From Anthocerotibacter panamensis C109 (GTDB lineage Bacteria; Cyanobacteriota; Cyanobacteriia; Gloeobacterales; Anthocerotibacteraceae): DNA of 64,000 nt. The position numbers were made by a program, and so were the translations under genes. The notes below the pieces were generated by a model that saw only the letters and a program-made list of their open reading frames with translations, ran no database searches and was not told the DNA's origin. Of the stretch, positions 5,645-8,128 are shown piece after piece. Numbering within the stretch: position 1 is the first letter of the stretch; each line of letters begins with the position of its first letter. The stretch is taken from NCBI RefSeq assembly GCF_018389385.1, contig NZ_CP062698.1, positions 3,752,667-3,816,666 of the forward strand, written 5' to 3'.

Positions 5645-8035
5645 CTAGCCCCGCGCCTGCAAAGGAGTGTACTCGACCTGACGTGGCCCTGTGTAGATCT
5701 GCGTCGGGCGGAAGATACGGTTGTTGGAGAGTTGTTCGCGCCAATGGGCTAACCACCCCGCCACCCGAGAGATAGCAAAAACAGGTGTGAAGATATCGCT
5801 GGGGATGCCCATTTTTTCGTAGACGATCCCGGAATAGAAGTCCACGTTCGGATAGATACCCTTGGGGGCCAGTAATTCCATGCAGACCTGCTCCACTTCC
5901 TGGGCGATTTTATAGGTGGGGCTGGGGCTGTAGATCTTGAACAGCTCTTTGACTAACTGTTGTAGGACCAGAGCACGCGGGTCTTTAGTGCGGTAGACGC
6001 GGTGGCCTAGGCCCATGATTTTTTCTTTGCGAGCAAGGCGTTCTTGGATGAAGCTGCGCGCCTGGGTCGCGTCGCCAATCTGTCCAAACATAGCAAGGGC
6101 TTCTTCGTTGGCCCCGCCATGGAGAGGGCCGGAGAGCGCTCCAATGGCGGAGGTGATGACGGTATAGGGGTCCGCTAGGGTCGAGGCGGTGACCAAAGCC
6201 CCAAAAGTCGAGGCGTTGACGGTGTGTTCGGCATGGAGAATCAAGCAGACCTCGAAGATGCGTGCCACCCGTGGGTCGGGGACTTGCCCGGTGAGCATAT
6301 AGAGGAAGTTGGCGCTGTGGCTGAGGTCGTCGCGGGGGGCGACCGGGTCGTTGCCTTGGCGCATTTGGTGAAACATCGCCACCAAAGTCGGCAGTTTCGC
6401 CACTAGATTGACCACGGCCTCGCGGGTGTAGTGCTCGTCGGTCAATTGGTACTCGCCCAAAGGATAAAAAAGCCCAAGCGCGGCGACACTGGCTTGGAGG
6501 GCATCCATTGGGTGTCCCTGGTCCGGGAAACACTTGATCATGTCGCGGATCGGATACTTTACCCGGCGCTGATGGAGGATATCTTCTTCGAACTGGTACA
6601 GTTGTGCTTTTGTCGGCAGATAGCCCCAGATGAGTAGGTAGGTGGTCTCCAAAAAAGTGCTGTGGGTAGCCAGTTGCTCGACAGGGATACCCCGGTATTC
6701 CAGAATGCCCCGCGCTCCGTCCACAAAACTGATATTCGAGCGGGTGGCAGGCACCCCAGCAAGTCCCGGCACATAGCTCTCTGGCGAAACCGTAGCAGCA
6801 TCGGAGTGGTCCGTGGGGAGGGCGGGTTCCCCGAGGTCCACAGGGTTCCAATCGCGCGCACCACTACGCGCTTGGAGCGGAAGCCAGGAACGTTCACGCG
6901 GACCGACGTAGACCTGTTCGGGGCGGAAGATGCGGTTGTTGGAGAGTTGTCCGCGCCAGTGAGCGAGCCACCCCGCCACGCGGGAAATGGCAAAAATGGG
7001 CGTGAAGATGTCGCTAGGGATGCCTATTTTTTCGTAGACCACCCCAGCGTAGAACTCCATATTGGGATAGACCTTTTTGGGGTTGAGCAGGGCGGTGGCA
7101 ACACGCTCTACCTCCAGCGCAATCTGATAGGAGAGACTCGGACCAAAGAGCCGGAACAGGTCTTCAGCAAGCTGTTGCAGGATAAGGGCGCGCGGGTCTT
7201 TAGTGCGGTAGACGCGGTGGCCTAGGCCCATAATCTTTTCGTTGCGGGCGAGGCGCTCTTTGATGAAGTCTATGACAGCAGCGGTGACCTCGGCAGAGGA
7301 TTGGTGGCCTAGACAGTTGCGGCTGATCTGCCGAAACATTTTGAGGGCTTCTTCGTTGGCCCCGCCATGGAGAGGGCCGGAGAGCGCTCCAATGGCGGAG
7401 GTGATGACGGTATAGGGGTCCGCTAGGGTCGAGGCGGTGACCAAAGCCCCAAAAGTCGAGGCGTTGACGGTGTGTTCGGCATGGAGAATCAAGCAGACCT
7501 CAAAGATGCGTGCCACCCGTGGGTCGGGGACTTGCCCGGTGAGCATATAGAGGAAGTTGGCGCTGTGGCTGAGGTCGTCGCGGGGGGCGACCGGGTCGTT
7601 GCCTTGGCGCATTTGGTGAAACATCGCCACCAAAGTCGGCAGTTTTGCCACCAGCCGGATCGTGACTTCGTAGGCGTAGGATTCATCGGTGAGGCGCTGA
7701 CTCCCCAGGGGATAAAAAAGCCCAAGCGCGGCGACACTGGCTTGGAGGGCATCCATTGGGTGTCCCTGGTCCGGGAAACACTTGATCATGTCGCGGATCG
7801 GATACTTCACCCGGCGATGGTGGAGGATATCTTCCTCAAAGCGCTGGAGTTGGGTTTTGGTCGGCAGGTGTCCGAAGACGAGCAGGTAGGCCGTTTCCAA
7901 GTAGGTGCTGTAGTTGGCGAGTTGCTCTATCGGAATGCCCCGGTACTCTAAGACCCCGGCTTGACCATCGATAAAGCTGATGTTAGAGCGCGTCGCGGGT
8001 ACACCGGCAAGACCGGGAACATATTGACCGTACAC
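5645..8035 (-). CDS. Tandem two-domain citrate synthase (two full-length copies in one polypeptide)
   Basis: A single 796-residue frame holding two complete citrate synthase folds: copy 1 about residues 1-395, an acidic linker about 396-420, copy 2 about 421-796. The offset is exactly 416 codons. The start is GTG with AAGGAGG seven to eight bases upstream. Both copies keep the substrate-binding HAEHTVNASTF, the catalytic His loop GPLHGGANEEAL, and the second His in GLGHRVYRTKDPRA. The catalytic Asp motif is intact only in copy 2 (NVDFYSG); copy 1 reads NMEFYAG, Asp to Glu. Citrate synthase condenses acetyl-CoA with oxaloacetate at the entry of the TCA cycle and works as a homodimer. A covalently linked pair could form an internal dimer with one normal and one altered site. 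Two blocks are almost identical at DNA level between copies (see findings). A 2-methylcitrate synthase role cannot be excluded. Confidence 0.93.
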   Translation of the reverse strand: MYGQYVPGLAGVPATRSNISFIDGQAGVLEYRGIPIEQLANYSTYLETAYLLVFGHLPTKTQLQRFEEDILHHRRVKYPIRDMIKCFPDQGHPMDALQASVAALGLFYPLGSQRLTDESYAYEVTIRLVAKLPTLVAMFHQMRQGNDPVAPRDDLSHSANFLYMLTGQVPDPRVARIFEVCLILHAEHTVNASTFGALVTASTLADPYTVITSAIGALSGPLHGGANEEALKMFRQISRNCLGHQSSAEVTAAVIDFIKERLARNEKIMGLGHRVYRTKDPRALILQQLAEDLFRLFGPSLSYQIALEVERVATALLNPKKVYPNMEFYAGVVYEKIGIPSDIFTPIFAISRVAGWLAHWRGQLSNNRIFRPEQVYVGPRERSWLPLQARSGARDWNPVDLGEPALPTDHSDAATVSPESYVPGLAGVPATRSNISFVDGARGILEYRGIPVEQLATHSTFLETTYLLIWGYLPTKAQLYQFEEDILHQRRVKYPIRDMIKCFPDQGHPMDALQASVAALGLFYPLGEYQLTDEHYTREAVVNLVAKLPTLVAMFHQMRQGNDPVAPRDDLSHSANFLYMLTGQVPDPRVARIFEVCLILHAEHTVNASTFGALVTASTLADPYTVITSAIGALSGPLHGGANEEALAMFGQIGDATQARSFIQERLARKEKIMGLGHRVYRTKDPRALVLQQLVKELFKIYSPSPTYKIAQEVEQVCMELLAPKGIYPNVDFYSGIVYEKMGIPSDIFTPVFAISRVAGWLAHWREQLSNNRIFRPTQIYTGPRQVEYTPLQARG

Positions 8036-8128
8036 GGGCAGACCTCCTTCGGAGACTGAGCGGTGAAGTGAATGGGGGTAAGCGTATGGTAAAGGCTGGG
8101 CATCCTGATTTCAAGAAAGGGATGACCC

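Follow-up and report, generated by a model that had tools for sequence, protein, structure and literature searches.

The locus studied here raises the question of why one chain should carry two citrate synthase domains of which the first has a glutamate at the position of the catalytic aspartate. The analysed window is a stretch of 64,000 nucleotides of the Anthocerotibacter panamensis C109 genome. In the pig enzyme the aspartate, Asp375, is the base for enolisation and deprotonates acetyl-CoA (PMC5830745); the critical base of the Thermoplasma enzyme is Asp317, and many of the conserved active-site residues act in both half-reactions (PMC4601594). Judging from its conservation and recurrence in related sequences, selection seems to have re-tuned a single active site here, and the glutamate looks like neither a sequencing error nor a product of decay.

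Structure of the gene

The fused two-copy citrate synthase of the original prediction was borne out as a single gene of 796 residues with two PF00285 domains (Table 1). Each domain scores 434-454 bits with the PF00285 profile (cut-off 27), and the fusion scores 1216 bits with the NF010639 profile (cut-off 502). A profile search of the genome, which is one contig of 4,187,797 bases, gave the fusion as the only PF00285 gene.

Table 1. Features of the fused citrate synthase gene, with positions in the window
Feature	Position	Strand	Remark
Citrate synthase gene, two domains fused in tandem, 796 aa, start codon GTG	5645..8035	-	sole PF00285 gene in genome
Shine-Dalgarno-like AAGGAGGT, 6 nt upstream of GTG start	8042..8049	-	read from sequence
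Copy 1 (Glu form), residues 5-391	6863..8023	-	
Interdomain linker, residues 392-420 (about 30), not conserved with Cyanaurora	6776..6862	-	
Copy 2 (canonical Asp form), residues 421-796	5648..6775	-	
NMEFYAG, copy 1 motif	7043-7063	-	
Glu327 (GAG), catalytic Asp position (E. coli Asp362), copy 1	7055..7057	-	alignment
NVDFYSG, copy 2 motif	5828-5848	-	
Asp732 (GAC), catalytic Asp, retained, copy 2	5840..5842	-	alignment
Copy 1 His273 (E. coli His305), retained	7217..7219	-	alignment
Copy 1 His223 (E. coli His264), retained	7367..7369	-	alignment
Copy 1 Asn265; Lys in 46/47 Asp-form domains; Gly in Acaryochloris-group Glu forms	7241..7243	-	
Copy 1 Lys321; Gly in 46/47 Asp-form domains; Lys/Gln in the two Glu lineages	7073..7075	-	
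Copy 1 tract near-identical in DNA to copy 2 (about 6092-6406); ends before Glu codon	7340..7654	-	

Aligned with the E. coli references GltA and PrpC (from NC_000913), Glu327 and Asp732 both fall on Asp362, which confirms the Glu (GAG) read in copy 1 and the Asp (GAC) read in copy 2. The equivalents of His226, His229, Asn232, His264, His305, Arg306, Arg314, Phe383, Arg387 and Arg407 are identical in both copies, and both His motifs are retained in each copy, as had been stated. The nearest solved chains by sequence are 8rjk, 8an1 and 8bei. An AlphaFold2 model of the fusion, built from five sequences, was poor (pLDDT 45.7).

Outside these residues the halves differ in several places. Copy 2 has Asn at residue 543 in both genera that carry the fusion (see below), at the position of Arg127 in copy 1, and Arg is found there in 45 of the 47 Asp forms; with this conserved change in copy 2 as well, neither half has stayed like the single-copy enzymes. 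Copy 1 of Anthocerotibacter contains an 11-residue insertion before the His305 motif (window 7250-7330) that is absent in copy 1 of Cyanaurora. Two tracts near-identical in DNA between the copies, separated by a diverged island, were found at 6092-6550 and 7340-7798, and suggest recent intragenic gene conversion.

Conservation of the Glu/Asp pair

The same fusion is found in Candidatus Cyanaurora vandensis of the sister genus, where copy 1 reads NMEFYSG and copy 2 reads NVDFYSG. A frame of about 820 residues with two citrate synthase domains was restricted to Anthocerotibacter and Cyanaurora among 39 genomes (its own and 38 relatives). The maximum likelihood tree unites the copy 1 domains of the two genera (100/96) and likewise their copy 2 domains (99/89), and all four branch together inside Gloeobacterales. 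This grouping, together with the same Glu/Asp pair, places the duplication, the fusion and the change from Asp to Glu before the split of the two genera.

The doubt that the Glu codon could be a base error is removed because Cyanaurora carries the same fusion with the same pair of residues. Long identical tracts between copies can mislead assembly, but the Cyanaurora assembly is independent and the codon lies in a diverged stretch, and an error of either kind can practically be dismissed.

Synonymous sites are saturated between the genera (pS 0.72 for copy 1 and 0.75 for copy 2), and dN between orthologues is 0.15 for copy 1 and 0.12 for copy 2. The resulting dN/dS of copy 1, about 0.06, is imprecise as dS is too large. 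Copy 1 is under strong purifying selection. In 45 single-copy cyanobacterial enzymes 123 positions are invariant; copy 1 departs from them at nine positions in Anthocerotibacter and at eight in Cyanaurora, and copy 2 at six in each. Only F45Y, V326M and D327E occur in copy 1 of both genera but not in copy 2. Copy 1 does not look like a decayed pseudoenzyme: with this dN/dS and a single altered catalytic residue, neither relaxed constraint nor a multiple loss of catalytic residues is seen. Copy 1 could still be a neutral relic, one good site sufficing in a fused dimer while the other drifts, and its somewhat longer branches in the tree would agree with that. Such drift is very unlikely given the dN/dS at saturated synonymous sites, the same Glu in two genera, the intact remaining catalytic residues and the recurrence of Glu in Acaryochloris.

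A second origin of the substitution

Glu forms were searched for with a pattern of fixed spacing (144 N) between the His305 and Asp362 motifs, which was validated in the window. As a control, the Asp form of the pattern matched in nine of nine genomes. The fixed-spacing motif gave zero matches in 100 shuffles of the window, and a chance motif was considered and rejected. Nine of 291 Cyanobacteriia genomes matched the Glu pattern, the two with fused genes and seven of the 29 genomes of the Acaryochloris family; this count is for Cyanobacteria only, and other Glu forms may be missed as the pattern needs the exact spacing and motif.

Where contigs of the group's best assembly found matches, these were Acaryochloris plasmids only. 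Five of the seven Acaryochloris-family genomes have a complete canonical Asp gene and a separate, unlinked, complete Glu gene. The Glu gene is cut short in G543, and it was the only one of the pair seen in G510, an incomplete genome. The Glu form has been retained as a separate gene in six species; its gene neighbourhoods vary between species and gave no functional clue. It resembles copy 1 in having the same Glu, in being altered at companion positions 265 and 321 and in sharing its genome with an Asp form, and differs in being a separate gene at another locus with an independent origin. Two independent changes to Glu are required by the maximum likelihood tree, being forced by well-supported branches and present in the bootstrap trees sampled. 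From this topology the substitution is judged to have arisen independently in Acaryochloris and a relative, in an extra citrate synthase.

Comparison of the position in relatives gave Glu in copy 1 of Cyanaurora and Asp, without exception, in all 47 aligned Asp-form cyanobacterial domains. The original prediction that Glu occurs in the first copy only holds for this gene, but not beyond it, since the free-standing Acaryochloris paralogue has the same substitution. Selection probably kept the Glu state, because it is common to two genera and arose again in the second citrate synthase of Acaryochloris.

Companion changes

Among 180 positions that are at least 93% conserved in the Asp forms, 14 are changed in both copy 1 domains and seven in all six complete Acaryochloris-type Glu forms. 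Three of the changed positions are common to both Glu lineages (P = 0.011): 327, 265 (where Lys has become Asn or Gly) and 321 (where Gly has become Lys or Gln). With 327 excluded the overlap has P = 0.06. Lys321 is not specific to Glu forms, because E. coli GltA and PrpC carry Lys there together with a normal Asp. That 265 and 321 were remodelled in concert with Glu327 is at most hinted at by this overlap.

Copy 1 might also be a near-normal citrate synthase whose altered residues 265, 321 and 326 enable Glu to take over the function of Asp. That would agree with the recurrent change of 265 and 321 in the two lineages and with the retention of the Acaryochloris Glu form as a separate gene. 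A near-normal copy 1 is unlikely in view of the invariance of Asp in the Asp forms and of the Asp copy that is nearly always retained beside the Glu copy, as if Glu alone were insufficient.

Possible function of the Glu site

The same substitution at the same position has reportedly been engineered in E. coli. The D362E enzyme of Man, Li, O'Connor and Wilton, made known in 1991, is said to have <1% overall activity; hydrolysis is reportedly blocked while cleavage of citryl-CoA, the reverse of condensation, is retained, and the mutant is said to behave as a citryl-CoA lyase. The exact share of the catalytic Asp in condensation and in hydrolysis has been a matter of debate.

Copy 1 is best explained as one site of an asymmetric pseudo-dimer that selection has maintained although it hydrolyses poorly, with flux through copy 2, an explanation by analogy that we consider to have about an even chance of being correct. 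The two halves of the chain would pair with each other, copy 2 forming an ordinary citrate synthase site, and Glu327 would make the catalytic carboxylate of copy 1 one methylene longer. On the D362E precedent copy 1 should still bind oxaloacetate and acetyl-CoA and condense them reversibly to citryl-CoA, and should hydrolyse citryl-CoA poorly, which would give it a low overall turnover and leave most of the flux to copy 2. As the fusion is the only PF00285 gene, the Asp half must supply this activity in the cell unless copy 1 contributes to it. For dimeric citrate synthase, kinetic cooperativity of the two sites has been reported as excluded (PMC4524684), which would make one fast and one slow site the simplest outcome. 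Candidate uses of the slow site are a lower flux, substrate sensing and supply of citryl-CoA to the partner site.

A hydrolysis-poor copy 1 is consistent with the presence of the Glu/Asp pair in both genera, with purifying selection and the retention of all other catalytic residues, and with the two origins of Glu, each of them in a gene that had been duplicated and was accompanied by an Asp form; the companion changes at 265 and 321 in the two lineages would agree with it as well. Against it, the reported precedent concerns a distant type I enzyme, and the companion changes could restore hydrolysis. There is also no obvious user of free citryl-CoA: citrate lyase alpha subunit and HpcH/HpaI lyase were not found in a search of the genome, and an ATP-citrate lyase of the usual type is absent because there is no PF00285 gene besides the fusion. 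Aconitase-family genes are present. The neighbouring genes in the window (DUF1815, DsbA-like thioredoxin, Cu/Zn SOD, DUF1348 and GNAT acetyltransferase) give no clue to function.

Each citrate synthase site borrows one Arg from the partner subunit, and copy 1 has retained this residue, Arg371. Two residues past it is Glu373, which is unique to copy 1 and found in both genera. These residues could point to another role, in which copy 1 would be a non-productive structural or regulatory partner with negligible turnover that either closes around oxaloacetate or acetyl-CoA or keeps the oligomer together, and gives Arg371 to the copy 2 site. Unusual effectors are known to act on cyanobacterial citrate synthase (PMC6465352), but the reported exclusion of cooperativity speaks against such a partner, and a purely structural role leaves unexplained why all catalytic His and Arg residues are retained and why the change was to Glu both times. 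We regard it as possible but rather unlikely. The earlier suggestion of a slow, altered or regulatory site would fit the conservation, the second origin and the reported D362E properties, with regulation as its more tentative part.

The more elaborate possibility that the halves divide the reaction, with reversible condensation to citryl-CoA at the Glu site and hydrolysis at the Asp site, or that the Glu site serves as citryl-CoA lyase or oxaloacetate/acetyl-CoA sensor, is doubtful at best. Were it true, evolution would have produced an asymmetric citrate synthase in the fusion, and the paralogous pair of Acaryochloris would have arrived at the same design independently.

Relation to known citrate synthases

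The close known systems are the cyanobacterial Si-citrate synthases (PF00285; NF010639, PRK14036), among them Synechocystis SyCS (PMC6465352) and Synechococcus elongatus SeCS (PMC11041685). Citrate synthases of cyanobacteria are slow as such, with a kcat of about 2.5-2.8 per second for SyCS (PMC6465352). Copy 2 is fully alike, and copy 1 is alike in every checked residue but one; the fusion differs from these enzymes in that its chain holds two domains and one of these has Glu where the catalytic Asp is expected. Citryl-CoA lyase and the citrate synthase homology domain of ATP-citrate lyase also act on citryl-CoA and belong to the same superfamily, but are only distantly related. The fusion scores 185.4 bits with the citryl-CoA lyase profile (PRK06224 group), below the cut-off of 261, and is below the curated cut-offs of the other lyase models also; a lyase partner was not found in the genome.

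E. coli D362E, by the account given above, is a laboratory type I mutant with all sites changed, whereas the present substitution is natural, affects one of two sites and has companion changes. No fused or tandem citrate synthase of this kind turned up in a literature search, and a conserved, twice-evolved Glu/Asp citrate synthase is not described in the literature searched. The catalytic Asp is a textbook residue, and nature has twice made and retained the substitution that reportedly separates the half-reactions in the laboratory mutant. Each time the Glu stands beside an intact Asp site, so that it can be tested in living cells whether the half-reactions are used separately, and in the one-chain enzyme each of the two sites can be mutated by itself.

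Further citrate synthase genes in the Acaryochloris family

Three other gene forms were seen among the Acaryochloris relatives. The Acaryochloris genome G534 has a third citrate synthase on contig C2 at about 2.037 Mb, a broken relic with several stop codons. In G553, of the Acaryochloris group, the Asp-form citrate synthase is split in two by a stop codon, and the Glu form was not found in that genome. G320 and G548, which belong to one genus of the family, have an additional, very distant citrate synthase with KLYPNVDFYSGILLR that resembles type I enzymes and was perhaps horizontally acquired.
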